Positions 1 to 29,529 of a stretch of DNA of 40,540 nucleotides are shown piece by piece. The notes below the pieces were generated by a model. The model searched no databases. It saw nothing but the letters and a program-made list of their open reading frames with translations, and was not told the DNA's origin. How positions within the stretch are numbered: position 1 is the stretch's first letter; every line of letters starts with the position of its first letter. The stretch is from IMG/VR virus record IMGVR_UViG_3300042473_000530, positions 1 through 40,540 of that record; one strand, 5' to 3'. Position numbers and translations under genes: made by a program. The stretch is from a virus.

Positions 1-651
1 GCTTTGCCGGGCTTCTTCAATTTCTGAAGCAGGCACAATCCCAGCATCCACGGTCTTAATGGTATAACTAAACCAGTTTTTCTTGCCGGGGTCTAATCCA
101 TCGCAGTAGGCTTCGTAGAACCACTTACTACCGGCGCTGACTTTAGGGGTGCCAAGGAACAAAGCATCCCCCTGCTGGTCAGCCAAGGCAGGGCGAACAA
201 TTTTAGTCCACATCACTTCAGTAATGTCGGCAGCTTCGTCAAAAATAGCAAAAGAAATCGAAAGACCTCGCAGGCGGTCTGGCACTTCGGCACCAAAGAG
301 GCGGATCATGGTGCCTGTATTCTTCAAGACAATCGACATATCGCTACGATTGATTTCAGAGATCATCTCAGGCGGAATGCTGTCCATCAACTCGCGCCAC
401 ATGATCTGCTTGGCCATCTTCAAAGTAGGCGCGATATAAACCACAAGCCCTTTTGAAACCGCATTGGCGGCACGGTATAGCTCGTGCTTGCTAAGGAATG
501 ACTTGCCACTTCGCCGCCCTGCCACTACCACGCGGTAGCGACATGGGTGGAGATAGACATGCGCCTGCCAGGGCATAAGGCCGAGGTTGCTAGTCGCCCG
601 ATCCGCTAAAACAGGATTGGGCTCCCACGTCAGTTTGTTAATCGCGTTCAT
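1..651 (-). CDS. terL: Terminase large subunit, N-terminal ATPase part (runs off the left edge)
   Basis: This is the motor ATPase that packages DNA into the prohead. Only the first 217 residues lie in the window; the frame is still open at base 1. Walker A is AGRRSGKS (residues 44-51), Walker B is FAIFDEAAD with D138 and E139, an RLRG segment lies at 126-129, and a coupling-type GTP follows the next strand. The C-terminal nuclease domain is outside the window. The ATG at 651-649 shares ATGA with the terS stop, so the two are translationally coupled in the usual terS-terL order. A degenerate paralogue of this ATPase domain lies at 6635-7330. The family call is secure; the specific packaging type cannot be told from this part. 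Confidence 0.93.
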   Translation of the reverse strand, partial: MNAINKLTWEPNPVLADRATSNLGLMPWQAHVYLHPCRYRVVVAGRRSGKSFLSKHELYRAANAVSKGLVVYIAPTLKMAKQIMWRELMDSIPPEMISEINRSDMSIVLKNTGTMIRLFGAEVPDRLRGLSISFAIFDEAADITEVMWTKIVRPALADQQGDALFLGTPKVSAGSKWFYEAYCDGLDPGKKNWFSYTIKTVDAGIVPASEIEEARQS

Positions 652-1343
652 TCGTCGCCTTCAGATACATCCTCGGAATCAAGCACGGCACGCTTCTTCA
701 CGATCATCGGCATGATTTCTTCCTTGGGCTTCATGAGACGGCGCAAGTCATGGACGTTGCGTTCTTCCTCGTTGGCCTTGGAGACGGCGGTGACAAGCTG
801 GCCAATCGACTTGGTAAGGCGGTTGAGTTCCACACGGACACTAGCAGGGTTTTCGCGAGTCTGTGCTTCCCCCTCCAAATGCTCAATTTCAGTCTCAAGC
901 AGATTGGAAATGCGGTCGATAATGCTATCAAGGCGCTTTGACCGCTTGCGCGTCGTGGTCAAACGCTCCGCAATCTGTGCGGCTGAGGACAAAATCACTT
1001 CATCTTCACGGGCTTTGTTGCCTCGCAGAAGGGATAGCGCCTCTGGTGAGGGCCTTCCGGTTTCATCCATCCCCATGACCATCATGGCGCGGGCAGCGTC
1101 GGCTACGCGAGGCTCTAAATTTCGCGTCCAATTGTAACGCCGAATACGATTAGAGATGGCTTGTGACGTGACGCCTTTGGCTTCAGGCAGGCGGGCCAAA
1201 TCGCTTAAAGCCCAGCCAATCCTATAATAATGCTCAATAACATCCCAATTTGCACCAGACTTCCACTTGCGCGCCTTTTGCTTGCGCGGCGCCTTCATAT
1301 CGGGGCGAATAGGCGTCACTTTCTCGGCCTTGTCGCTTGACAT
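648..1343 (-). CDS. terS: Terminase small subunit
   Basis: This 231-residue protein should recognise the packaging site and load the large subunit. Residues about 33-75 form a helix-turn-helix (VTSQAISNRIRRYNW as the recognition part), preceded by a very basic N-terminus. The middle (about 120-200) is a long charged helical stretch suited to ring oligomerisation, and the C-terminus is acidic. The stop overlaps the terL start by four bases. The start at 1343 has GGAAG nine bases upstream. A TTGACT/GATAAA promoter and a 15-bp palindrome lie directly upstream, so this gene probably heads its transcript. Assignment rests on the HTH and on its position before terL. Confidence 0.82.
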   Translation of the reverse strand: MSSDKAEKVTPIRPDMKAPRKQKARKWKSGANWDVIEHYYRIGWALSDLARLPEAKGVTSQAISNRIRRYNWTRNLEPRVADAARAMMVMGMDETGRPSPEALSLLRGNKAREDEVILSSAAQIAERLTTTRKRSKRLDSIIDRISNLLETEIEHLEGEAQTRENPASVRVELNRLTKSIGQLVTAVSKANEEERNVHDLRRLMKPKEEIMPMIVKKRAVLDSEDVSEGDE

Positions 1344-5432: not shown

Positions 5433-6569
5433 ATGCCCAATAGTTTGTCAAACCTCATTCCCCGGCTTCTCGCTCGTGGTCTTCTTGCTCTACGCGAGCA
5501 GGCGATCATGCCGCGCCTAGTCAACCTTGATTATTCGTCTGAAGGTGCGATGCGTGGTTCCACCATCGACATTCCGATCAGCAACACCTTTACCGCCACC
5601 GACGTTGCCCCGTCCATGACCCCCGCTTCGGCTCAGGACAGCACCCCCGGCCTCGTGCAGATCGCCCTTGACCAGTGGAAGGAAGTTCCCTTCTTCATCA
5701 CTGACAAGCAGCGTATGGAAATCATGGAGAGCGAATCCTTCCTCCCCATGAACGTCTCCGAGACTGTTCGTGCCCTAGCCAACTCCATGGACGGCTATAT
5801 CCACAGCCAGTATGTGGACGTGTATGGCTACGTGGGCGTTGCTGGTCAGACCCCGTTCAGCACCATTGCTGACGTGGTGAATGCTCGTGCGGCTCTAAAC
5901 CGCCAGCTTTCCCCCATGGGCAACCGCCGCATGGTCCTGAACCCGGATGCCGAGGCTCAGCTACTTCAGATTCCTGCTATGTCCGATCTGGAAAAGACCG
6001 GCGATCAGGAAGTGAAGATCGAGGGTATGCTTGGCCGCAAGTTCGGCTTCGACTTCTTCCAGTCCACCAACGTCGTGACCCACGTCGCTGGCACCGCCGC
6101 AAGCATCACCGTGGCTTCCACCACGGCCCTTGGCGCTACCTCGCTGGATATCATCGCCTCCGTGGCAGGCACCCTGCGCCGTGGCGACGTGTTCAGCATC
6201 GCTGGCAACACCCAGACCTACGTGGTGACTTCGGCCAACGCTACCTACACCAGCACCAAGACTGCTATCTCTATCAGCCCTCCGCTGGTGGCGATTGCAT
6301 CTAGCGGTTCTGACGTGGCCAAGCGCGCTTCGCATGTGGTCAACCTAGCCTTCCAGCGCGAGGCATTCGCCTTCGTGAACCGTCCGCTGGCTGGTGTCGG
6401 TTCTGGCCCGGAACTCGGCTCCATCATCTCGCAGATGACCGACCCGGTGTCTGGCCTGACCATGCGTATGGAAGTGACCCGCCACAACAAGCAAGAGCGC
6501 TTTGCTGTGGACGTGCTATACGGCGCCAAGGCAGTCCGTCCTGCCCTCGCCGTCCGCGTCGCTGGCTAA
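5433..6569 (+). CDS. Major capsid protein, P22 coat family
   Basis: This 378-residue protein should form the icosahedral shell. The sequence resembles the P22 gp5-type coat family: N-terminal helix (LIPRLLARGLLALREQAIMPRLVN), then GSTIDIPI and WKEVPFFITDKQ in the E-loop and spine region, MVLNPDAEAQLLQIP in the P-domain, an inserted threonine- and alanine-rich beta domain at about residues 215-290 that corresponds in position to the I-domain insertion, and DVLYGAKAVRPALAVRV at the C-terminus. The AGGAG ribosome site lies six to seven bases before the ATG. Codon use looks GC-rich and uniform, as expected for a highly expressed gene. A strong terminator follows. Confidence 0.88.
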   Translation: MPNSLSNLIPRLLARGLLALREQAIMPRLVNLDYSSEGAMRGSTIDIPISNTFTATDVAPSMTPASAQDSTPGLVQIALDQWKEVPFFITDKQRMEIMESESFLPMNVSETVRALANSMDGYIHSQYVDVYGYVGVAGQTPFSTIADVVNARAALNRQLSPMGNRRMVLNPDAEAQLLQIPAMSDLEKTGDQEVKIEGMLGRKFGFDFFQSTNVVTHVAGTAASITVASTTALGATSLDIIASVAGTLRRGDVFSIAGNTQTYVVTSANATYTSTKTAISISPPLVAIASSGSDVAKRASHVVNLAFQREAFAFVNRPLAGVGSGPELGSIISQMTDPVSGLTMRMEVTRHNKQERFAVDVLYGAKAVRPALAVRVAG

Positions 6570-6590: not shown

Positions 6591-6620
6591 AAAGCCGGGC
6601 AGAAATGCCCGGCTTTTTTT
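6591..6620 (+). terminator. Rho-independent terminator after the coat gene
   Basis: AAAGCCGGGC and GCCCGGC form a 7-bp GC stem (6594-6600 with 6607-6613) around AGAAAT, followed by seven T on the plus strand. On the minus strand the stem is followed by TTTC, so it may also stop transcripts arriving from the terminase paralogue, whose stop lies at 6635. Confidence 0.9.
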
Positions 6621-6634
6621 GTTGGCTGGCGCTG

Positions 6635-7330
6635 TCAGGTAGAGGGTGTTGGGTCTAGTTTTTCAGGCCAATGCGCCGTTTGAGCGGGATATTTTGCACG
6701 AAAATCTTCTAGAATTTGCACCATAGTAATCAGTCCGGCATCAAGAGTTTTAATCCGGTAACTGAACCAGTCGCGTCTATACGGATCAATTCCCGCGCAA
6801 TATGCGTCGTAAAACCAACGCCCTGGGCCTTCTGTGCCCTTCGGAGCACTCAAAAACAAAACTCGTCCTTGTCGGTTTGCTAGTGACGGGCGAATGTGGT
6901 CGCGCCAAATTTCTTCTGGCATGTGCGCCGCGTGTTCGAGCACGGCAAAATCAATATTTAACCCACAAAAATAAGAAGTTGATTCGTCACCGAACACCCG
7001 GATCGTACTCCCGGTAGGTTTCAGCACTAAAGACATATCGTGGTCGTTTACATTTTCAATTATCTCTTTTGGAATAGTGTCTAGCAACGGGTTCCACATT
7101 TTTGAGCGCGCCAGTTTTCGAGACCGCACCACGTAAATTACCATCCCGTTCTTGATAGACATAGCGGCGCGAAAAAGTTCGTGCATGGCAAGAAATGACT
7201 TGCCGGTAACAATACCCGCTGCGACTACTCGAAAGCGACTCTGGTTCGAGAACACATGTTTTTGCCACGGCAGCATTTGTGGCCCGTTCAGGGTTAGTTG
7301 AGGCGAGGTGTGTTGGGGTGTATCTGTCAC
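6635..7330 (-). CDS. Degenerate terminase large-subunit ATPase paralogue (putative pseudo-ATPase)
   Basis: This 231-residue protein aligns nearly end to end with the visible ATPase domain of the phage's own TerL: MLPWQKHVF against LMPWQAHVY, KSFLAMHELFRAA against KSFLSKHELYRAA, WFYDAYCAGIDP against WFYEAYCDGLDP. ATPase positions differ: Walker A is AGIVTGKS (residues 38-45; TerL has AGRRSGKS), Walker B reads FAVLEHAAH (E132, H133 in place of D and E), and RLRG is replaced by YFCG (120-123). There is no nuclease domain, and the frame is intact. I choose GTG at 7330 because an AAAGGGA lies eight bases upstream; the longer reading begins inside the tRNA gene. A non-hydrolysing regulator or decoy is inferred. 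A decaying duplicate is the alternative. Confidence 0.75.
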   Translation of the reverse strand: MTDTPQHTSPQLTLNGPQMLPWQKHVFSNQSRFRVVAAGIVTGKSFLAMHELFRAAMSIKNGMVIYVVRSRKLARSKMWNPLLDTIPKEIIENVNDHDMSLVLKPTGSTIRVFGDESTSYFCGLNIDFAVLEHAAHMPEEIWRDHIRPSLANRQGRVLFLSAPKGTEGPGRWFYDAYCAGIDPYRRDWFSYRIKTLDAGLITMVQILEDFRAKYPAQTAHWPEKLDPTPST

Positions 7331-7350
7331 TGATCTATTCCCTTTTTTGT

Positions 7351-7437
7351 TGGTAGAGGCGGTGGGATTTGAACCCACAATGCCGTGAGGCCATCAGATT
7401 TTGAGTCTGACGCGTATGCCAGTTCCGCCACGCCTCC
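7351..7437 (-). tRNA. tRNA-Leu (anticodon CAA)
   Basis: The 87-base gene folds into a full class II cloverleaf. The acceptor stem is GGAGGCG with CGCCTCT (first pair G-T), the T arm is GTGGG-TTCAAAT-CCCAC, and the anticodon loop CTCAAAA gives CAA, which reads UUG. A long variable arm (GGCCTCACGGC region) supports leucine. The discriminator A and the CCA end are encoded. It lies in the minus-strand operon between the methyltransferase-like gene and the terminase paralogue, so it is probably processed from their common transcript. Confidence 0.93.
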
Positions 7438-7443
7438 TTAAAA

Positions 7444-7989
7444 CTAACCCCACTGCGCTGCCATCGCCGTTGCAATACCCGTGAAAGTCTTGGATCGTTC
7501 TTTCCACCGATCAGGACTCGGGGGCATCCGATGGACGCGAGCTTCGCGCCCAGATACGATATTAGTCGGAACTAGGTTAGGCAACCCCTTCAACCACAAG
7601 CAAGTTGCTTTTGTTTCTCCGTGCCCGAATTGCCATGGTTGGATAATCTGATTTGGCTTACGAACCCTAGAAGAAATAATGCTAACCGGGTTCTCCAGAG
7701 CGATTCTAGCGATTGGAGCATCTAATAAAGCACGCACAAAGAGAAGGGCTTCTTTCTGTTCTTCTTGCTTCTCTTTGAACCATCTTGCGCCTGATACAGC
7801 TAGATGTGTGCAAGGGGGATGGGCGATCAGCAAATCCCACCCATCCTCTAGGATAGAGAGAACGTCTTGCTGAAAATGTTTTCCAGGGGTTTCAGTAGGG
7901 AGCAAATCACAAGACCACGCGTCATGCCCACGCTCTTTGAACGCGTCCCTTACAACGCCACTAAACTCACATGCTACCAAAACTCGCAT
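7444..7989 (-). CDS. Small DNA cytosine methyltransferase-like protein
   Basis: The 181-residue product carries the core marks of C5-cytosine methyltransferases: an SAM-site-like VLVACEFSGVVRDAF (residues 3-17), AHPPC with C60 as the candidate nucleophile, and ENP at 99-101. No separate target-recognition domain is visible, and the protein is about half the size of typical enzymes such as M.HhaI. Phages often carry this short form; its target, and even whether it acts on DNA, is not established by the sequence. I choose ATG 7989, with AGGA about ten bases upstream; an ATG 33 bases earlier overlaps the preceding gene. No restriction enzyme is nearby. Confidence 0.72.
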   Translation of the reverse strand: MRVLVACEFSGVVRDAFKERGHDAWSCDLLPTETPGKHFQQDVLSILEDGWDLLIAHPPCTHLAVSGARWFKEKQEEQKEALLFVRALLDAPIARIALENPVSIISSRVRKPNQIIQPWQFGHGETKATCLWLKGLPNLVPTNIVSGREARVHRMPPSPDRWKERSKTFTGIATAMAAQWG

Positions 7990-8008
7990 CGCTTTCTTTC
8001 CTTTTAAG

Positions 8009-8410
8009 TTAAAAGCATTCATATCCCGTTTCGGTGGTATAGAACACCCGCTTTATCCCGAAGTCAGCAATGCACTTAGCGCAACCTAGACAGGGTTTAG
8101 CATTGCCCAAAATAAATTGCTCTCGTTTCGTGCTAGAATATTTGACCCGGCACACATATAGGTCCGCTTTTTTCAAGCTGTCTACGTCCACAACACGCAA
8201 AGCATTGAAAATGGCGTTTGTCTCTGCGTGCCAAAAAAGAGATTCAGGATTTTTCCCAAATTTGGCTTGGAACGGATGCGTCCGCATCTGGTTAGCACCA
8301 AACGATATAATCTCTTTGCCACGCACGATGGCAGCCGTCATGCGTGAACTTTTAATCGGAGCTACGTCTTCCGCAAGCGCACCCAGCGTATAAAAAATAT
8401 TCTTGTGCAT
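8009..8410 (-). CDS. Cytidine/deoxycytidylate deaminase-like protein
   Basis: This 133-residue protein has the zinc-deaminase signature HAE (H61, E63) followed by PCLGC (C107, C110) with a further C113. H61, C107 and C110 would bind zinc and E63 would act as the proton shuttle. Phage dCMP deaminases convert dCMP to dUMP to feed thymidylate synthesis; this protein is shorter than T4 Cd and could also act on free cytidine or on another nucleotide. A good ribosome site (AAAGG seven bases upstream) supports ATG 8410. It sits with a dNMP kinase and, beyond, ribonucleotide reductase in the window, so nucleotide supply is the likely role. Confidence 0.8.
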   Translation of the reverse strand: MHKNIFYTLGALAEDVAPIKSSRMTAAIVRGKEIISFGANQMRTHPFQAKFGKNPESLFWHAETNAIFNALRVVDVDSLKKADLYVCRVKYSSTKREQFILGNAKPCLGCAKCIADFGIKRVFYTTETGYECF

Positions 8411-11972: not shown

Positions 11973-13165
11973 CAGATGCCTATTGCCGACCATAGAAAAG
12001 AATAAGACGAAGTAGGGGGGCTATAGGCATTAAAACTTGTTCTGCTAAAAGAGCCGATTTTTAATGCGTCTAAACTCTGCGCGGAATCTCCCCCCGTTAT
12101 AGTAAGTTGAATATTATATGCGGCGGTAGGAAAAGCGGTCGCAAATGTTATAGTTACCGCGCCGCTTGACGTTACCCCTGAGCCCCACTTCATAATAATA
12201 CCACTCGGGAGCGTCATACTTCCTGTGGTGCTTGCGTTGGTCACAAAGTCAGAGGCCTTTATAACTTCGCTACCGTTGATAGACGGGTTTACTTTGAAAT
12301 CTGCCTTGCGGGTAGAACGTGTGACTTCGAACACATCGCCTAGGGATGCACCCGCGTCACTGAATGCTCGCAAGGCAAAGTTACTACCCGCGTTTGATCC
12401 CGACTCTGCCGCGTTGGTGACTACAGCTTGGAACCGCGTGGTTGCACCAGTTGCCCAAGAGATGACCCTGTCTGTGCCCGCGCCGCCATAAACCCCAGCG
12501 GTGCCTGAAACGTACAGGGGGCCGGTCATAGTGTCGCCCGCTTTATCAACCGCACCTATGTCAGATAATGAGGCCCAAGTAGGCGCGGAAGTAGACCCGT
12601 TTGTGCGAAGAACTTGCCCGCTCGTGCCGTGGCTATTGTTAAATAGGGCGGCACCCGTTTCGTTAAATTCAAGTCGGCTAGAGCCGTTTGTGGCAAGCGC
12701 CACACGGTTCGCCCCTGGAAAGAATAGGCCGGTATCCCGATCCGTGACCGGGGACACGACCGTTGTGCTTTGAGAACCACCGCCTGCGAAAGCAACATAG
12801 GTGGAGACATACATCACACCATCGCTGTCATACATGACAAAGCGAGAAGCTGACGGGGCAAAGAACAGATACTTTGTGCCAGAGGACCAACTGACAGCCG
12901 AAGTGCCCCCCGTGTTGTTGCGGACAATAAGCGTTCGACTTACGGTTGGCGTGGCCGCAGAGGTATAAGTCCCTTCGCCAATTTCAAAAAGCGAAGGGTT
13001 CGTAAGACTGTCCACTGCTACGTAAGAAACGCGAGAGCCAGAAACCACACCCGCTAAGGCGGGCGTCAGATACCCCGAGACTGCTGCCCCTAAATCGTAA
13101 GTCCCTGTGCCCGCAGTGTTCGTTGCGACAAGAACTCGATCACCAACATTAACAGGGACGCCCAT
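11972..13165 (-). CDS. Tail fibre / receptor-binding protein
   Basis: This 397-residue protein is the last of the tail module, just before the lysis genes. The N-terminal part (VGDRVLVATNTAGTGTYDLG and following) is a repeat-poor beta-rich region common at the start of phage fibres. DKAGDTMTGPLYVSG (about residues 208-222) is a typical fibre shaft motif. The C-terminal about 85 residues (LPSGIIMKWGSG, ITFATAFPTAAYNIQLT, FLWSAIGI) match the gp53-like fibre C-terminal domain that binds receptors. The start overlaps the upstream stop in TAATG. Host range is likely set here, possibly with the other minor tail proteins. Confidence 0.82.
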   Translation of the reverse strand: MGVPVNVGDRVLVATNTAGTGTYDLGAAVSGYLTPALAGVVSGSRVSYVAVDSLTNPSLFEIGEGTYTSAATPTVSRTLIVRNNTGGTSAVSWSSGTKYLFFAPSASRFVMYDSDGVMYVSTYVAFAGGGSQSTTVVSPVTDRDTGLFFPGANRVALATNGSSRLEFNETGAALFNNSHGTSGQVLRTNGSTSAPTWASLSDIGAVDKAGDTMTGPLYVSGTAGVYGGAGTDRVISWATGATTRFQAVVTNAAESGSNAGSNFALRAFSDAGASLGDVFEVTRSTRKADFKVNPSINGSEVIKASDFVTNASTTGSMTLPSGIIMKWGSGVTSSGAVTITFATAFPTAAYNIQLTITGGDSAQSLDALKIGSFSRTSFNAYSPPTSSYSFLWSAIGI

Positions 13166-13962
13166 TAGTTATCTTCCTCAATCTGAAAATCGGTTGTCCA
13201 CAAATCTTCCAATTCTCGATTTACCACAGGCACGTCCGAAAATTGACCAAATAGCCCTTCACCAAGATAGTCTTCTTCACGAGCAAAAAAGACTTGTCCG
13301 GTTGTTCCTACTTCGCTTGAAGCTGCAATGATACTTGAGGCTTCGCTCTCAGTCAAAATGGGGAAAGCAATTCGCTCTACGCGGTAAGGCAAACCTCGCG
13401 TGGCATAACGAACGCCGGTCAGCCCTGCCCTGCTTGAAAGGCCAGGATCACGGAAAGAGCGGGCATGCCCGTAGGCGTAAGAGTCAGTAGTTACTAGGCC
13501 GTCGCCAACCCACAGTCTGCCAAGCTGCAAATAACTAATTTCTGAGGACAGAGGGGGCACGGGGCTTTCAAAAGTCAAACGCACATAGCGCGCTGTGATG
13601 CCTGTTGCAGACCGCCAACCCCACACACCCCAAGGGTTAAGCGTAAAACTAGCAGCACCAAGATTAAGGGCGTCTGTGCCGCTTTGGCTTGAAACGCTTG
13701 CTCTAATAGCAACGGTGGCGCCAGACGGGGGTAAAGCTCCGTCACGGGGCGCTGCAAACGCGATGACTTTGATCGCCCTACTGACGCCAAAATCAAGGTC
13801 GATGACGGCATCTGTAAATTGCCTCCAATCGCCACTACGCCAATAGTTCTGCACCTGTGGCGTGAGCATACCGCGCGGCCCAAGCCCTGCGGCTTCGCTG
13901 GAAACAGTCAGCGAAGCCCCACTTTGCTCCGCCCAATTTTTCCATGAGAGAACCGCGCCCAT
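13165..13962 (-). CDS. Minor tail protein (tail tip)
   Basis: The 265-residue product lies between the hub-like protein and the fibre with one-base TAATG overlaps on both sides, so it belongs to the tail tip. RYVRLTFESPV and ISYLQLGRLWVGDGL (about residues 125-160) resemble a discoidin-like jelly-roll sandwich, which in phage tails often binds carbohydrate. Two tryptophan-rich segments (NYWRSGDWRQF and NPWGVWGWRS) are notable. I choose ATG 13962 for the coupled overlap. The exact role, adhesin or structural tip, is not determined. Confidence 0.7.
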   Translation of the reverse strand: MGAVLSWKNWAEQSGASLTVSSEAAGLGPRGMLTPQVQNYWRSGDWRQFTDAVIDLDFGVSRAIKVIAFAAPRDGALPPSGATVAIRASVSSQSGTDALNLGAASFTLNPWGVWGWRSATGITARYVRLTFESPVPPLSSEISYLQLGRLWVGDGLVTTDSYAYGHARSFRDPGLSSRAGLTGVRYATRGLPYRVERIAFPILTESEASSIIAASSEVGTTGQVFFAREEDYLGEGLFGQFSDVPVVNRELEDLWTTDFQIEEDN

Positions 13963-15599
13963 TAACCCCACAACTCCAACTCAGCGTAGTCGCCTCTAGC
14001 AGAGATACCCCGCACAATAAAAGCCTTTCCGTTTGCCAACGTAGGGATGCCGGGCCACCTTAGCGTAACTGTCGTGCCTATTGGAATAGTCCACCAATTA
14101 AGGCCCCCCGCCCTAGGGCCAACACGCGCGGACCATGTGCGGCGGGGCACTTTGTATATTGCTAGCAAAGACTGCGCCAAAGTAGAGGCGGCGGTCTGGG
14201 ATTCCAAAACCCCTGGTAATTCAGGACCATCAACCGCCAAGGGATACCTGGTTCTAACCGTAATATCAGAAGCAACAGCGAAGCGGCGTTTCTTCCCATA
14301 ATACTCTTGTATGTGGGTAGAAGCTGCTGCGGCTATATCCCCGCCTTCCTGCGTCGTCTCAATTTCTTGATACGACACCTTTACCCGCCACCAAGGGGGC
14401 ATAGAACCTGATGTTTCTTCTGGTGCGCTGATTTGCATATACGGCTCGATAGCGATAGTAGAAGTGGTGGCGACAGGAGCGTAGATTATGCTGCCTTCAA
14501 ACTGACCAAGCGTATTAGCGCCCCACCATGCGGAACCAAGGCCTGCGGCCAGTTGGTTCATAGCATCTTCAACGGTGCCTTCTCGGACAATAACGCCAAC
14601 CTCCTCTTGAGGCCATGCCGTAAACGAGGAAGCAGTCGCACTCGCCACACCGCCGATCACTCGCAAGATTTGCGCGGCGACGTGGCTGGCAGTAGAGACG
14701 TAACCCCCATCCTTCTCTCCACGCACGTCCGAAGTTAAGAATACGGGGTCGGCGTGTAGTTTAATAAATCCGCCGCCTTTATATGAAGCATATTTGCCAT
14801 CTCCAGGGTTCTCCGCGACCAAGGAGGCGTATGAGCTTGCATCCGCGTGTAATATTAAATTGAGGCCGCCATCTCGCACCGCTACAATTTGTTGAACCGC
14901 TCCGTCATGTAGCTGATATATTCGATTTACGTCATCTATCAGAACGGGCTGCATATTTCGCACAAAGCCAAAAATACGCGGCTTAGCCACTCCTTCGAGG
15001 CCCGTGCTTCCTTCTGTCCCGCCTGCCCCTGTGTAAAGGGTATTGGCAGTGGTCTGTAAGTCAGCAGCAGCCGAACGCAGCGGCATACGAAGGGTGTCAG
15101 TGCCCTCAAAGGCTTCTGAGGCGCGAAGGGAGGCGACCTCTACCCAAGTGGATCGTGGGGCGTGTGTGGGGCGCCTGTGGGGTGCCCTGGTTAGCTTGAC
15201 CCGGCGCCCCGCCACCGCCCATTCGCCTGCAATGGTATCTAGCGCGCCATCCGTGTTCGAGAAACGAAGTTCGCCTGATTCGATTTGAGCGCGCCTGCCT
15301 TCTCCGGGGTAGACAGGGATGAAGCGTTCTACCGCAGGGGGTTCGAGCATACGGGGTGGATAGACGGCGACGGTGCCCGTATCGCCGGGTTCCTGCACCC
15401 AGCCACGGTCAGAGGCCACGATAGTAGGCGCTGTGGCAACTGAAGAACCTCGTGTGTCTATCGCTGCCATAGGGGCACCGGAGGGCATAAATAAAGGGGG
15501 TGGGCGAGGATCGCCAACGCCTTGCGGGTCTGGGTTAATCTCGATAAGCCAAACAGATTCTTCAATCGCGGCGCTAGCCGCCGTAATAGTTACGCTCAT
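13962..15599 (-). CDS. Tail tip hub-like protein (putative)
   Basis: The 545-residue protein directly follows the tape measure, the usual place for distal tail or hub proteins. It starts SVTITAASAAIEESVWLIEINP, and a middle segment AQIESGELRFSNTDGALD followed by GRRVKLTRAP resembles tail proteins that open with a lambda-L/M-type domain. An insert near 320-350 (VREGTVEDAMNQLAAGLGSAWWGA) and the end (TIPIGTTVTLRWPGIP, GKAFIVRGISARGDYAELELWG) are hub-like. The ATG overlaps the tape measure stop as ATGA. Family naming is by position and general resemblance, not a strong motif. Confidence 0.65.
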   Translation of the reverse strand: MSVTITAASAAIEESVWLIEINPDPQGVGDPRPPPLFMPSGAPMAAIDTRGSSVATAPTIVASDRGWVQEPGDTGTVAVYPPRMLEPPAVERFIPVYPGEGRRAQIESGELRFSNTDGALDTIAGEWAVAGRRVKLTRAPHRRPTHAPRSTWVEVASLRASEAFEGTDTLRMPLRSAAADLQTTANTLYTGAGGTEGSTGLEGVAKPRIFGFVRNMQPVLIDDVNRIYQLHDGAVQQIVAVRDGGLNLILHADASSYASLVAENPGDGKYASYKGGGFIKLHADPVFLTSDVRGEKDGGYVSTASHVAAQILRVIGGVASATASSFTAWPQEEVGVIVREGTVEDAMNQLAAGLGSAWWGANTLGQFEGSIIYAPVATTSTIAIEPYMQISAPEETSGSMPPWWRVKVSYQEIETTQEGGDIAAAASTHIQEYYGKKRRFAVASDITVRTRYPLAVDGPELPGVLESQTAASTLAQSLLAIYKVPRRTWSARVGPRAGGLNWWTIPIGTTVTLRWPGIPTLANGKAFIVRGISARGDYAELELWG

Positions 15600-22095: not shown

Positions 22096-24603
22096 TTAAG
22101 TTGTAAGGGCGCGCAATTCACTGTCAGAGTAAAAATAGTTTGAGAGGGTAGCGGAACGAGCCCAGCCAATAACGTAGTTACCTGCCCCCCAAGGAGCGCT
22201 TAATACAGCTACGTTTGTCATAGCAGCATAGCCTGCGCGTGCAAACGTAGATGCGGTAAGTGCTGCTCCGTTTATTGAATATCGGGCACCTGCATAGTTG
22301 ATTGAGGCGCCTATTTTATTGGCGGTGAAAGCGGGGCGTAGTTGAGCGGTTAGACTAACGCCTGTGTCTCCTACCCCATTTATGATGTATGTAAAATTTT
22401 CAGTAAAGTATGATGTATTGCTAAAAGAGCCGCCTGATGTCCCAGCATATACTACGCCACTACCTTGTGAATTGCTTGCAGACAGAAACTCGATTGAGTA
22501 AGCATACCCGCTAGGCGACTGAAACCAAGGCGCATTTGCACTTAGACTATAAGTTAAGCGGTCAGCAGCGCGAGTGACCGTTGCTCCTGAAGTCTTGATT
22601 GGACTGGTGATTACATTGCCTAATTCTAGTTGTGGTAGGCCAAAACGCAAAGTGAAGTCCCACGCCGTTGCTGATGGAGATACAAGAAACCGCATTTGCT
22701 CATAAGTTGTCCCCGCGTTTACGTTGGTCCTTGATACTATAGTCCGTTGTGTTCGGAGTGCAGCGCTAGTTACCGTGCTTCGTATATCTGTTGTAGTTTG
22801 AGAAACGCCAGGAAATTCGTAGATTCTCGGGCCTACTACTCCTAGACCTGTAAAAGAGCCTGCAACTAATTTTAGAAAGACAGCGCCTATCCAAACTTGT
22901 CCGTTTGCCGCAGAGGCATGAGTCCCTCCGTCTAGGACTAATTCAAATGCAGATTCTCCGCCGTTTCCCGCCCACCTTATATCAATATATTCGATACCGT
23001 CTTCTGTCCCGGTCCCCACGATTTGCCGAGTTACGCTTGAAGTTGTGCCTCCGCTCCAAGTCGTAGGTAGTGTCCCCGGCGTTCCTGCCACGGTGGCGCT
23101 AGCAATATTGTTGCGAACCCAATTTGTGCGGGACGGTTCTAGCGCTATACCACGCAGGGATAGGCTGCTTGGGTCGTAGTCAACCCTCGCAACGTCAGCA
23201 CTCGCAACAGTCAAAACGCCTGAACTATTGAAATATGTAGCGTTGCTGGCGCGGCTGTAGGTCCATCCTGAAGGCACGCCAGTTAGAAAACTAAAAGTCT
23301 GCGTCCTAGGGACTAAGTTGCTTGCTTGGATATAAATAGGCGCTGTGCCTTGTTGCGGATTTGCCGCAAGTGGTGTCAACGCCACAAAGGGGAGTGAGAC
23401 AGTAACCCCGCTATCCGAAGAAGTATCTACTTCTCCACCAGAATATTTTAGACGCGGGATGACGATGCTTATGAATTTTGTATCCGCGTCTAGGGCCTGT
23501 GTATTCTGCAATTGCAGTATAAGTTTGGATTCTGTCTCTTGGATAAACTTATCGAAAGCGGATGAACTTGAAAAAAGAACGCTAATCTGCCCTGTTACTT
23601 CTACAAATCGTCCGAAGAAGATATTGGATACAGTTTCGGAACCTACCGTCTGCGGCGCCAACATGCTGTTGTTGATCGAAATTTCAGCCGCAGTGACCAA
23701 GCCAAGGGCATTGCTGCCTTCAAAGAGCGTGCCATTTATAGCGGTGTAAGGCGTTGTTTGTTCGGTATCGGGTGGTGGATAGTTTTCGGTGATACGAAAA
23801 TCACCGCTCTCACCTACCCTTATATCCCCGCTTTCTGTAACGCGGATTCCCGCGTATATGGCGCTTGTAGAGGAAAAAGAAGAAGCGTCTCGGCCTATGA
23901 GATTAAAAGAAAGAGTAGCGAGGCCAGAAGCGGGCACAGAGAACGTGGTTTGATTAACTCGGATACCCCTGAACTGCTGGTAGAGATTGAGGTCTGAAAG
24001 CCAACGTTCAATAGTAAAGGAATGATACGCGCCTTCAAGAGATGCCTTGCGCCCTACTTCATATACGCGATTGACAGCCACACTTGAAGAAGTAGAGGTA
24101 AGGGCTCCTGGCTCCACTTTGATTGTCGAAGAAGAAACGCTGACTGCGGTAAGGTACACGCCTGTTATACCTGCCACTGGTCCGTTTGGGGAGGTAAGAT
24201 AGAAAATCTCGCCTTCTCTGAAACCATTAGATATCAGGTTATATCCCGCAGTGGCGCAAGTGATGCGGTTGTTCGTTGCATCAACACTCGCCGTAAACGC
24301 ACTCGCAATAGGGGCCGCGGTCGCCCACGTCCCCCCAATAGCTGCCTCAAGCAGATCGTCCCAAGACTGCTCTGAAATTTCGCCTAAAATGTCACCAGAT
24401 ACACTTTTATATCCGTGAAATAAATTTTGCCGCACGCGAGATGAGAGCCGTGCGTCTGGTTGCCTGATTTCCTTTTGTAGGTTGACGTTAAGATTTACAT
24501 CGCGGATACGCTTAAACGGTTGGCCTACAGGCGTAGAGCCAAAGACGCTTTCCGCGACATAACTGTATTCGGCAAGCGAGCCTGTTGCGATACTACCGCT
24601 CAT
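22096..24603 (-). CDS. Long tail tube paralogue with C-terminal adhesin-like extension
   Basis: Residues 1 to about 425 of this 835-residue protein are homologous to the 400-residue tail tube protein at 24970-26172: MSGSIATGSLAE, FKRIRDVNLNVNLQKE, GYKSVSGDILGEISEQSWDD, GLVTAAEISINN, FVALTPLAANPQQGT. An inserted short repeat (RVTESGD, RVGESGD, RITEN) sits at about 255-275. The remaining about 410 residues begin GWTYSRASNATYFNSSGVL and continue RGIALEPSRTNWVRNN, a pattern common in phage proteins that carry lectin-like sandwiches. It could be a minor tube subunit that displays a binding domain, or a termination or initiation tube protein. It uses more A+T-rich codons than the short form, which suggests lower expression. 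Confidence 0.78.
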   Translation of the reverse strand: MSGSIATGSLAEYSYVAESVFGSTPVGQPFKRIRDVNLNVNLQKEIRQPDARLSSRVRQNLFHGYKSVSGDILGEISEQSWDDLLEAAIGGTWATAAPIASAFTASVDATNNRITCATAGYNLISNGFREGEIFYLTSPNGPVAGITGVYLTAVSVSSSTIKVEPGALTSTSSSVAVNRVYEVGRKASLEGAYHSFTIERWLSDLNLYQQFRGIRVNQTTFSVPASGLATLSFNLIGRDASSFSSTSAIYAGIRVTESGDIRVGESGDFRITENYPPPDTEQTTPYTAINGTLFEGSNALGLVTAAEISINNSMLAPQTVGSETVSNIFFGRFVEVTGQISVLFSSSSAFDKFIQETESKLILQLQNTQALDADTKFISIVIPRLKYSGGEVDTSSDSGVTVSLPFVALTPLAANPQQGTAPIYIQASNLVPRTQTFSFLTGVPSGWTYSRASNATYFNSSGVLTVASADVARVDYDPSSLSLRGIALEPSRTNWVRNNIASATVAGTPGTLPTTWSGGTTSSVTRQIVGTGTEDGIEYIDIRWAGNGGESAFELVLDGGTHASAANGQVWIGAVFLKLVAGSFTGLGVVGPRIYEFPGVSQTTTDIRSTVTSAALRTQRTIVSRTNVNAGTTYEQMRFLVSPSATAWDFTLRFGLPQLELGNVITSPIKTSGATVTRAADRLTYSLSANAPWFQSPSGYAYSIEFLSASNSQGSGVVYAGTSGGSFSNTSYFTENFTYIINGVGDTGVSLTAQLRPAFTANKIGASINYAGARYSINGAALTASTFARAGYAAMTNVAVLSAPWGAGNYVIGWARSATLSNYFYSDSELRALTT

Positions 24604-24969: not shown

Positions 24970-26172
24970 TTAGGCGGCATTGCCGCGCTGGATAGAGATA
25001 GACGAAGTGCCCTGCACAACGTTGGCAGCAAGTGGCTTCAGCGCCACGAAAGGCATGGTCACGGTGATGCCTGTGTCGGGGCTGTCATCCACATCGCCAC
25101 CGCTATATTTGATACGGGGCAGAACGAGGGTCACAAACTCAGTTGTGCTGTCGAGCAAATCCTTATTCTGAAGCCGCAGAATAAGTGTTGATTCCGTCTC
25201 GTTCACGAACTTGTTGTGCATGTCTGCATTGGTGAACAAAACGGTGATTGTGCCGCTTACGTCAGCAAATCGACCAAAAAGAAGGTCAGGCGTCACGTTG
25301 GTGCCGACGACTTGAGGCCCCGCCATGTTGTTGTTGACGGTCAACTCAGCAGCGGTGACAAGGCCAAGAACAACGCCACCTTCATATACCTCTCCGTTGA
25401 CAGCAGCAAAAGGAGTGGTCAGCGGCGAAGCGGTATAGGTAGAGGCCGCAGAAGTAGAGGAGAACCCTGTGCCGTCTTGCCCGATAACGCTGAACGTCAC
25501 CGTTACTAGGCCAGAAGCCGGGATGGAAATGGTCATCTGGTTCATACGGACGCCACGGAACTGCTGGTATAGGTTTCGGTCGGTCAACCAACGCTCAATG
25601 GTGAAAGAACGGTAGGTGTTGCCAATGGCGATCTTGCGGCCAGCAACCGCAATAGTCGCAGAAGCAGTAACCGTAGTGCCGATAGTGCCGGGCTCAACCT
25701 CGATGGTAGACACCCCGACGCTCAGTGCGGTGAAGAAGCGATCAGTCAAACCGGCAAGTGCAGGAGTTGCGCTGACCGAAAAAACGTCGCCAACTCGAAT
25801 CCCGGCTGTCGGGAAGTTGGCAGAGCCCACCGTGATGCGGTTGGTGGCGGAGTTGGAAGCGACGCTGGTGAAAGGAGCCGAAGCGCCGGTTGCCCAAGTG
25901 CCACCCATGATAGCCTGGATGAAGTCATCCCAAGACTGCTGCGAAAGCTCACCAGTAATGTCGCCAGTGACGGAGCGATATCCGTGGCGCACGTCTTGGC
26001 GCTGACGGTCAGAGCGACGCTCCTCCGACTGATATGCTTCCTTCTGAAGGTTGACAGAAAAAGACACATCGCGGATTCGCTGAAAAGCAGAACTGACCGG
26101 GGTAGTGCCGAAAGTTACTTCAGCAATATACCCAAGTTCAGTAAGTGAACCCACTGCAATTGAACCGCTCAT
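24970..26172 (-). CDS. Major tail tube protein
   Basis: The 400-residue product should polymerise into the tail tube around the tape measure. It has the same fold pattern as the first 425 residues of the long paralogue at 22096-24603 and a C-terminal Ig-free end (FVALKPLAANVVQGTSSISIQ). It lies in the tail operon upstream of the chaperones, with its own promoter and a leader hairpin. AGGAG six bases before ATG 26172 supports the start, partly held in a small GTTCT-CAGG-AGAAC hairpin. Codon use is GC-rich and even, like the coat gene, consistent with a highly expressed structural subunit. Identity as tube is by size, position and duplication pattern. Confidence 0.8.
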   Translation of the reverse strand: MSGSIAVGSLTELGYIAEVTFGTTPVSSAFQRIRDVSFSVNLQKEAYQSEERRSDRQRQDVRHGYRSVTGDITGELSQQSWDDFIQAIMGGTWATGASAPFTSVASNSATNRITVGSANFPTAGIRVGDVFSVSATPALAGLTDRFFTALSVGVSTIEVEPGTIGTTVTASATIAVAGRKIAIGNTYRSFTIERWLTDRNLYQQFRGVRMNQMTISIPASGLVTVTFSVIGQDGTGFSSTSAASTYTASPLTTPFAAVNGEVYEGGVVLGLVTAAELTVNNNMAGPQVVGTNVTPDLLFGRFADVSGTITVLFTNADMHNKFVNETESTLILRLQNKDLLDSTTEFVTLVLPRIKYSGGDVDDSPDTGITVTMPFVALKPLAANVVQGTSSISIQRGNAA

Positions 26173-28081: not shown

Positions 28082-28825
28082 TCAATTTCCGCCAGACTTT
28101 ACAAAGGCATCTCGTTCGTCAAGCCAAACAGCATCCGCTTCAGGTGAAATGGTGTTGCCCATCCAAGGGCCACCTAGCGTATAGTGGGCAATCTTTGCCG
28201 TCTGGATATCGTAGCCCGGCTCACCGATAAGCGCGTTCCACTCTTGTGGTAGCGCGCCGATGTGCTTGTCTGGGTCTTTAATCCAGTCAAACCGATGTAA
28301 ATCTCGCCCAGGCACAGAATTGATATGTGCGAGGTTCAAGCAATCATTTGCAAAATGATTGCAGTTGAACGCCATGACTGAGGACCAATTCTTGAAACTG
28401 TAGCTAGTCTGGATTTGACCATCCATCTTTAGCAGGGTGGATGGGTTATACTGGTGCTTGACGCACATCACTGCATACTTGCTTTCTAGCAAGTCAAACA
28501 GTTTTGCAACGTCATCTAAGAATAGGACATCGCAATCGACAAAGACGGCCCATCCTGCATAACCATATTTTGCTCTATGCAGGATTGGAGTCAAAAACCG
28601 GCTGATCGCGAACTCTGTTGCCTGTGGGGCTTCTGAGATCACATCCCACAGTTTGCCCTCTCGCGTTTCAGTCTGACGCCAGATCATCCCTTGATCGCGC
28701 AAGTCGTTAATTTTGAGAGGGACAACGCTGACGGGCACTGAGGCCCGCCGCTTCAAACTGAACTCTGCTACTTTATACGCTTCGACTTCTCGGCTATCGA
28801 AGCCCATATAGATGGTCGGCACCAT
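28082..28825 (-). CDS. Glycosyltransferase with DxD motif
   Basis: The 247-residue product starts PTIYMGFDSREVEAYKVAEFSL, then has ISRFLTPILHRAKYGYAGWAVFVDCDVLFLDD with the DxD metal-binding pair D97 and D99. This fits a GT-A fold enzyme, near GT8-like sequences often found in phages. ATG 28825 overlaps the FkbM gene stop as TGATG. It belongs to a three-gene cassette with an FkbM methyltransferase and a second glycosyltransferase. The acceptor is not visible in sequence; a virion protein or host surface glycan is possible. Confidence 0.8.
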   Translation of the reverse strand: MVPTIYMGFDSREVEAYKVAEFSLKRRASVPVSVVPLKINDLRDQGMIWRQTETREGKLWDVISEAPQATEFAISRFLTPILHRAKYGYAGWAVFVDCDVLFLDDVAKLFDLLESKYAVMCVKHQYNPSTLLKMDGQIQTSYSFKNWSSVMAFNCNHFANDCLNLAHINSVPGRDLHRFDWIKDPDKHIGALPQEWNALIGEPGYDIQTAKIAHYTLGGPWMGNTISPEADAVWLDERDAFVKSGGN

Positions 28826-29529
28826 CAATCCCACCCAAGAATAAAATCGTCAACGACGCGCTGCTTAACCGTGGCGCCCCAAGATAAAAGTAGTTCAAGT
28901 GCCGCATACTGCTTCCACTCAAAAATATCCCACGGCTTTTGCTCGATACAAATAATAGGTTTGCACCGCCGGATCGCGCCTTCAGCACCAAGAACGATGG
29001 GATATTCATACCCCTCTACGTCCATCTTGATCGCGCTTACAAAAGGATGGTTCTCTGCATCGAGCGTAGTTAAAGGCACGGTGTAGTTGATGGACGACGC
29101 CTCTCGCTTTGCGGTATCTTCCGAGGCGACATGAGTGCCCGATGTAACTTCGGGGCGATACTCCATGACCACTTCGCCAATCGTGTTGCCTAGAGCTACA
29201 CGCCTTAGCTCGACATTAGGCGTAGGCTTCTCTGGATGCTCAATGGTATTGAGCATAAAGCACCGCTGGTTAATCTCGATAGGCTCGTAGGCCACAACGC
29301 GGTCAAAAGCACGGGCGAAGTGCATGGACCACATACCGACATTGCCACCTACGTCCAGCACTAGATTGCGCCGATTGGTGGGAGTGTGGTTGAGCATGGC
29401 GACTAAGGTATGAAGCTGGTAACTCCCTTCACCCTTGCTGTTCCGCTTAGCAGCACCTTCAAGGAAAGGAAGAAGGTGTTCCTCTGTGGCGGGAAGCCAA
29501 ATTCCCGCCACCTTCTTGATATCTGTCAT
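28825..29529 (-). CDS. FkbM-family methyltransferase
   Basis: The 234-residue product has the SAM-binding strand LVLDVGGNVGMWSMHFA (residues 56-71), VAYEP (79-83) and the family hallmark IKMDVEGYE (about 167-175), matching FkbM-type sugar methyltransferases. These O-methylate sugars in glycans. The ATG overlaps the first glycosyltransferase stop as TAATG, and the following glycosyltransferase starts inside its stop region. The product probably methylates a sugar added by the flanking enzymes. Confidence 0.88.
   Translation of the reverse strand: MTDIKKVAGIWLPATEEHLLPFLEGAAKRNSKGEGSYQLHTLVAMLNHTPTNRRNLVLDVGGNVGMWSMHFARAFDRVVAYEPIEINQRCFMLNTIEHPEKPTPNVELRRVALGNTIGEVVMEYRPEVTSGTHVASEDTAKREASSINYTVPLTTLDAENHPFVSAIKMDVEGYEYPIVLGAEGAIRRCKPIICIEQKPWDIFEWKQYAALELLLSWGATVKQRVVDDFILGWD

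Follow-up and report, generated by a model that had tools for sequence, protein, structure and literature searches.

A TerL-derived pseudo-ATPase predicted from a single-gene accessory insert of a phage

Organization of the locus

The window analysed here has 40,540 bases and spans a virus record at its full length. Positions 6635..7330 on its minus strand carry a gene, referred to below as pseudo-TerL, for a protein of 231 aa that corresponds to the ATPase domain of the large terminase subunit TerL without the nuclease domain. The frame runs from a GTG start codon at position 7330 to a stop codon at position 6635 through 231 codons with zero internal stops or frameshifts, and a GGGA stretch lies 8 nt upstream of the GTG. 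The gene for tRNA-Leu (CAA) is found 20 bp upstream on the same strand (7351..7437). On the other side, the gene for the major capsid protein (5433..6569, plus strand), the product of which is 40% identical to annotated Vibrio phage major head/capsid proteins, converges on the pseudo-TerL gene. A terminator-like hairpin of 11 pairs (6591..6616) is located between the two, the terminator being common to both genes; the hairpin is present in 10/10 relatives, and shuffled sequences average 2.8 such sites, so that it carries little weight when taken alone. A search for promoter-like sites ahead of the pseudo-TerL gene gave none, and the counts of promoter-like and terminator-like sites were not above those of the shuffles.

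Nearly all tailed phages rely on TerL for packaging, and the protein is a known trigger of Avs immunity in bacteria. The phage represented by the window also possesses terminase genes of the ordinary kind: the small terminase gene terS (648..1343, minus strand; phrog_1206, E=3.7e-10) is followed by the N-terminal part of its own terL with the motifs intact (1..651, minus strand), the remainder being cut off by the end of the window. The full own-type TerL, as seen in the related contig L005, is a motor-nuclease of 442 aa that includes the nuclease half and adjoins terS, and, unlike pseudo-TerL, the TerLs of the genus (L005 and its relatives) have all motifs present. The pseudo-TerL gene lies on the same strand as the terS-terL pair, about 5.3 kb from terS. 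All this agrees with the preliminary description of this DNA, which had placed an intact frame of 231 residues with a ribosome site at 6635-7330, near a tRNA gene and far from terS, and had left the minus strand unmentioned.

Elsewhere in the window, two adjoining proteins encoded on the minus strand (22096-24603 and 24970-26172) appear from their translations to share a similar N-terminus (MSGSIA-GSL-E), perhaps owing to a duplicated tail protein. Furthermore, a gene for an FkbM-type methyltransferase (28825-29529, minus strand; E 3.2e-23) is found among virion-type genes, both of its neighbours being without NCBIfam matches.

Sequence relatedness and predicted structure

When compared with the window by tblastn, pseudo-TerL aligned with the phage's own TerL at 91/190 identical residues (48%) with a single 1-residue gap, in line with the stretch of about 200 residues described before. 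The best match to a PHROG TerL family had an E-value of 7.5e-15, the score against Pfam Terminase_6N was 14.8 bits, which is below the cut-off of 22 bits, and PADLOC returned a helicase match only, a marginal one with an E-value of 0.009. The APT stretch of TerL resembles helicase motif Ia.

The AlphaFold2 model built from a 45-sequence alignment had a pLDDT of 88.1 and a pTM of 0.82 and was used instead of a poor model (pLDDT 52) obtained with just 6 sequences. Its best solved match was the ATPase domain of P74-26 TerL (Z 23.7, rmsd 2.7, 202 residues), which was also the best Foldseek match (E 3e-13), followed by the TerLs of T4, D6E, HK97 and Sf6; the complex of Avs3 with a bound phage TerL (8dgc) was matched with a Z of 15.7. 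The predicted fold of pseudo-TerL is that of the N-terminal ASCE ATPase domain of TerL. The C-terminal RNase H-like nuclease domain, already reported as missing, is absent, the frame ending at the linker.

The likeness to the TerL ATPase of Thermus phage P74-26 (4zni and 4znl; 4znj for the R139A variant) extends over the fold of nearly the whole model and over the P-loop Gly, Lys and Ser. In contrast, the R139-type arginine, the catalytic glutamate, the Walker B aspartate, the P-loop arginine and the coupling threonine are changed, and pseudo-TerL has a separate gene of its own, in addition to the complete terL of the phage.

Catalytic machinery

In comparison with the phage's own TerL, AGRRSGKS is replaced by AGIVTGKS, RLRG by YFCG, FDEA by LEHA and GTP by SAP in pseudo-TerL, which confirms each of the changes first described in Walker A, RLRG, Walker B and GTP. 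Conservation was assessed against 129 TerLs, many of them mutually close and one (L107) with in-frame stops. The residues R40, R41, R122, D132, E133 and T162 occur in 129/129 of these TerLs and are all changed in pseudo-TerL; the same six columns are conserved in 44/44 of the other rows when the alignment is thinned at 93% identity. Thus, of eight catalytic columns (picked from known motifs after the finding had been seen), all invariant in the 129 TerLs, six are changed, namely both P-loop arginines, the trans-acting arginine of the P74-26 type, the Walker B aspartate and glutamate, and the coupling threonine. Retained are the P-loop residues G39, G43, K44 and S45 as well as R147, with G43, K44 and R147 found in 129/129 TerLs. 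Since the P-loop glycine, lysine and serine are kept, a point that the preliminary description had passed over, pseudo-TerL may still be able to bind a nucleotide.

In a leave-one-out control, in which each of 128 TerLs was scored against TerLs less than 60% identical to it, 0/128 departed at any of the eight catalytic columns, as against the six departures of pseudo-TerL. At near-invariant columns pseudo-TerL departs at 13/32, whereas ordinary TerLs depart at 16% on average and at 26% as a maximum. There are 48 columns conserved in at least 90% of TerLs, of which pseudo-TerL keeps 30 and loses 18. The preliminary description had called the change of the active site selective; this is only partly right because, besides the six catalytic columns, 12 of the 18 lost positions fall outside the catalytic set. 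The enrichment of losses in catalytic columns is weak, being 5/7 versus 13/41 in the 48-column frame (Fisher p=0.086) and 6/8 versus 12/40 with R41 included (p=0.04); when R147 is counted as catalytic, the values become p=0.13 and, with R41, 0.06. Judged from the aligned residues, the hydrolysis site of pseudo-TerL is gone and some structural columns are gone with it.

The residue R122 aligns with the arginine that is alanine in 4znj, an entry titled as the P74-26 R139A mutant, and it is a cysteine in pseudo-TerL. According to PMC5727402, R139 is the confirmed trans-acting arginine of P74-26 TerL, while the trans-acting arginines of D6E TerL (R158) and of phi29 belong to a different loop. The nearest candidate for the D6E R158, by its spacing from the catalytic glutamate alone, is R147, which is retained. 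The loss of the arginine finger is therefore not certain, because the D6E and phi29 arginine sits elsewhere and R147 is kept, and a trans-acting finger may survive in pseudo-TerL despite the change of R122. The same paper reports that alanine at the P-loop arginine, the catalytic glutamate or the trans-acting arginine each abolishes hydrolysis by D6E TerL and that mixtures of the mutants partly regain it. It further reports that the lone D6E ATPase domain is mostly a monomer, a small fraction forming four-to-five-fold oligomers, and that full-length TerL has a kcat about 60 times lower than this domain.

The length of pseudo-TerL matches an ATPase half, as would be expected if it cooperated with a separate nuclease half in a split TerL; the own TerL is of full length with its motifs intact (L005) and the active site of pseudo-TerL is changed, so that the chance of such an arrangement is close to nil.

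Among the other TerLs, that of L107 (1934-3256) is a frame with three in-frame stops, explained either by stop-codon recoding or by a gene that is broken, and that of L026 (10004-12656, plus strand, and 12653-14464, minus strand) is apparently interrupted after EFEA by an intein-like stretch, with two overlapping frames; the ThyX of L026, as read from its translation, apparently bears an intein as well.

Insertion at the tRNA gene

The pseudo-TerL gene is contained in an insert of 717 bp (6626..7342; 728 bp with one copy of the repeat), which is absent in 10/10 relatives that cover the site. These were L009, L010, L011, L013, L014, L015 and L017 at 83-98% DNA identity and L018, L024 and L025 at 77%, as measured over the main flanking alignment; other near-relative contigs end short of it, and no alignment of the tRNA-Leu stretch with L026 was obtained. 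The insert is bordered by two direct copies of an 11-bp repeat, TTTTTTGTTGG, the first (6615..6625) being in the T-run after the hairpin of the capsid gene and the second (7343..7353) overlapping the CCA end of tRNA-Leu. The window contains no further copy of the repeat; both copies are on the plus strand, and one copy is present at each empty site. The insert carries one gene and ends 9 bp past its stop codon. The pseudo-TerL gene is a moron-like single-gene insert, found in one lineage and with a clean empty site in close relatives; by parsimony, it would have been gained recently by this lineage. The distal end of the insert (window 6617-6650) resembles the 3' end of tRNA-Leu (GGTAGAGG), which is perhaps a recombination scar or chance.

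Across the tRNA-Leu gene there is a second presence/absence insert of 566 bp (7443..8008), absent in 9/10 relatives and present in L017, which contains the greater part of a gene resembling DNA methyltransferases (ORF 7444-8022, minus strand; phrog_757, E=5e-72).

Over 11,062 bases the contig L001 matches the window without a single difference, and L002 differs at 4/15,888 positions, none of them inside the pseudo-TerL gene; the presence of the gene in three near-identical contigs argues against an assembly artefact. Orthologues were sought in viral_contigs with the whole protein, an alignment with TerLs, three fragments and two DNA patterns of the dead motifs, the contig scans picking up sequences that share 7 or 8 consecutive residues exactly or nearly so; ordinary TerLs were returned in number, and orthologues of pseudo-TerL were found in the L001 and L002 contigs only (80 of 86 loci were examined in one of these searches, and the dead motifs were checked in TerLs of at least 300 aa). 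In genome_contigs, 6 and 65 pattern matches were obtained, none related to pseudo-TerL. Among 163 phage records with one place each, the best 60 show at most 35% identity, and the best 15 of 899 plasmid records at most 33%. In 14 whole related records, the gene was found solely in the contigs behind L001 and L002. Absence of orthologues elsewhere had been named in the preliminary description as evidence against its reading, and this is borne out in part, the gene having been found only in three near-identical contigs of one phage.

Evolutionary origin

In the evolutionary tree of 32 tips, for which the root was placed on L115, pseudo-TerL is sister to the TerLs of the phage's genus, with a support of 85 for the genus excluding pseudo-TerL. 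Its branch is 0.99 long, compared with about 0.25-0.39 for the genus TerLs, which are the closest sequence relatives found (42-51% identical). By these comparisons the divergence of pseudo-TerL is far older than its insertion, and the source of the gene is likely an unsampled relative, because pseudo-TerL split off before the known genus TerLs diverged. A recent duplication of the phage's own terL was ruled out by a protein difference of 52% against a difference of 2-3% in the flanking DNA to the nearest empty-site relatives; the idea of a duplicate of the own gene, raised earlier, did not hold for a recent event since the split predates the divergence of the genus TerLs. The GC3 of the pseudo-TerL gene is 0.47, compared with 0.60 for terL, 0.46 for the methyltransferase gene and 0.485 for a nearby dCMP-deaminase gene; the low value is no proof of foreign origin because the deaminase gene, which is common to the relatives, is equally low.

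Selective constraint

The evolution of the pseudo-TerL branch was analysed with a branch codon model based on 10 sequences and 191 codons, in which omega=1 was rejected (2ΔlnL 17.4) and the branch was not separated from the background (2.4); the value of omega itself is not measurable because synonymous changes have reached saturation and the length of the branch is at its bound. The dN/dS comparison suggested in the preliminary description thus rejects neutral evolution on this branch, with the reservation of saturated synonymous sites. Neutral simulations, continued until as many conserved columns were lost as in pseudo-TerL, left the frame without a stop in 2-5% of runs. The joint neutral chance of no stop and at least 6/8 changed catalytic columns, a threshold equal to the observed value, was at most 0.0013 (25 to 300 mutations), and no more than 0.0022 when R147 was added as a ninth column, in simulations that ignore indels. 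These statistics support constraint on at least part of the branch and speak against reading pseudo-TerL as a plain product of decay. That constraint may have acted while the protein was still a working TerL, and the branch may mix constrained and relaxed phases.

The main rival to a functional mimic is nevertheless decay, that is, that the 5' part of the TerL gene of an unsampled sister phage entered by recombination at the 11-bp repeat and is functionless and unbroken so far. It would be in keeping with a gene present in one lineage only and placed between a tRNA gene and a terminator, with the long branch, and with the loss of 18/48 conserved columns, 12 of them non-catalytic (13/32 at the strictest cut, above the range of ordinary TerLs). 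Against it stand the unbroken frame and the rejected neutral branch, the low joint probability obtained before indels are considered, though the stop test alone gives 2-5%, an insert trimmed tightly around a single complete gene and its ribosome site, and the retention of the P-loop glycine and lysine while six of eight catalytic columns changed. The marks of a decaying pseudogene (stops, frameshifts, a neutral pattern) were not seen, within the limit set by the saturated synonymous sites. Pure neutral decay is unlikely, and a fragment in decay overall is a minority prospect; selection has probably preserved pseudo-TerL for some function of its own.

Possible roles of pseudo-TerL

Almost certainly, pseudo-TerL can be described as a TerL-derived pseudo-ATPase, a hydrolysis-dead ATPase domain carried in a single-gene accessory insert. 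The pseudo-ATPase first proposed from the sequence is thus supported by a predicted fold that is kept, hydrolysis residues that are lost and a neutral branch that is rejected. No description of a free-standing dead TerL domain was found among the open-access titles, abstract openings and passages surveyed. Pseudo-TerL would be a pseudoenzyme of TerL descent on an accessory insert, so far an orphan known from a single phage.

With chances that we consider even, pseudo-TerL is a recently acquired hydrolysis-dead TerL mimic that probably occupies partners of TerL. It would fold, may bind nucleotide through the retained P-loop, and would occupy a TerL partner without turnover, be it a rival motor, the portal or an immune sensor. 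The likeliest target would be packaging by a co-infecting relative or a satellite, through entry into the motor ring or through the portal site, and the next likeliest a host sensor that recognises TerL.

As described in PMC8589836, DNA engagement, packaging success and speed are all reduced in T4 motors doped with ATPase-dead gp17 subunits, and the motors tolerate one inactive subunit. These dead subunits, which join rings and impair packaging, offer a model of how pseudo-TerL might work, with the difference that they are laboratory mutants whereas pseudo-TerL is a natural second gene. Since dead T4 subunits impair motors, a dead domain could impair the motor of a co-infecting relative, and the poisoning would be incomplete because T4 motors tolerate an inactive subunit. 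By this analogy, blocking of a competing motor by the mimic is conceivable, if on the unlikely side: ring assembly might itself suffer from the loss of these residues, the phage's own motor could equally be poisoned, and orthologues of any functional mimic were found in one phage only.

Avs1-3 are specific for TerL. Pseudo-TerL might act as an immune decoy that binds TerL-sensing STAND proteins of the Avs1-3 type without the activating geometry. A solved structure shows Avs3 in complex with a phage TerL (8dgc), an entry also matched by the model, and counter-defence cargo could well be gained in this manner, as a single gene near the methyltransferase insert. Terminase or portal is recognised by AVAST systems, as stated in PMC10286901, and a mock TerL domain could bind such a sensor. 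The same source describes a phage protein, DSAD1, that competitively blocks DSR2, a sensor of a virion protein; the likeness is one of principle, since pseudo-TerL is a TerL homologue whereas no homology of DSAD1 to its competitor is claimed in the passages on it. The PADLOC match to a helicase was marginal, and the altered active site together with the missing nuclease half leaves Avs binding questionable, so that we consider a decoy doubtful. When TerL homologues were tested on Avs5, the effects were weak and only twofold, according to PMC12931631.

Alternatively, pseudo-TerL might regulate the phage's own motor by capping or slowing its TerL ring. Its nearest relatives are indeed the genus's own TerLs and its strand is that of TerS-TerL, but ten relatives are without the gene at the site and have no other copy in their (possibly fragmentary) records, and a protein just 48% identical to the own TerL would be reducing the phage's own packaging; such a regulator is very improbable.

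Taken further, the mimic would be a transferable natural pseudo-terminase, passing between phages as an insert of one gene at a tRNA 3' end and under selection as a weapon or a shield, which either poisons the motors of rival phages and satellites or blinds TerL-sensing immunity; we consider this a serious candidate, though one that falls somewhat short of an even chance. The motif losses predict zero ATPase activity, possible nucleotide binding and possible mixing with TerL rings. If decay alone is at work, the locus would offer an exceptionally clear picture of a gene fragment after its capture. As a natural dead copy of the motor domain, pseudo-TerL would be a convenient tool for asking whether phages employ mock motor subunits against rivals or immune sensors.
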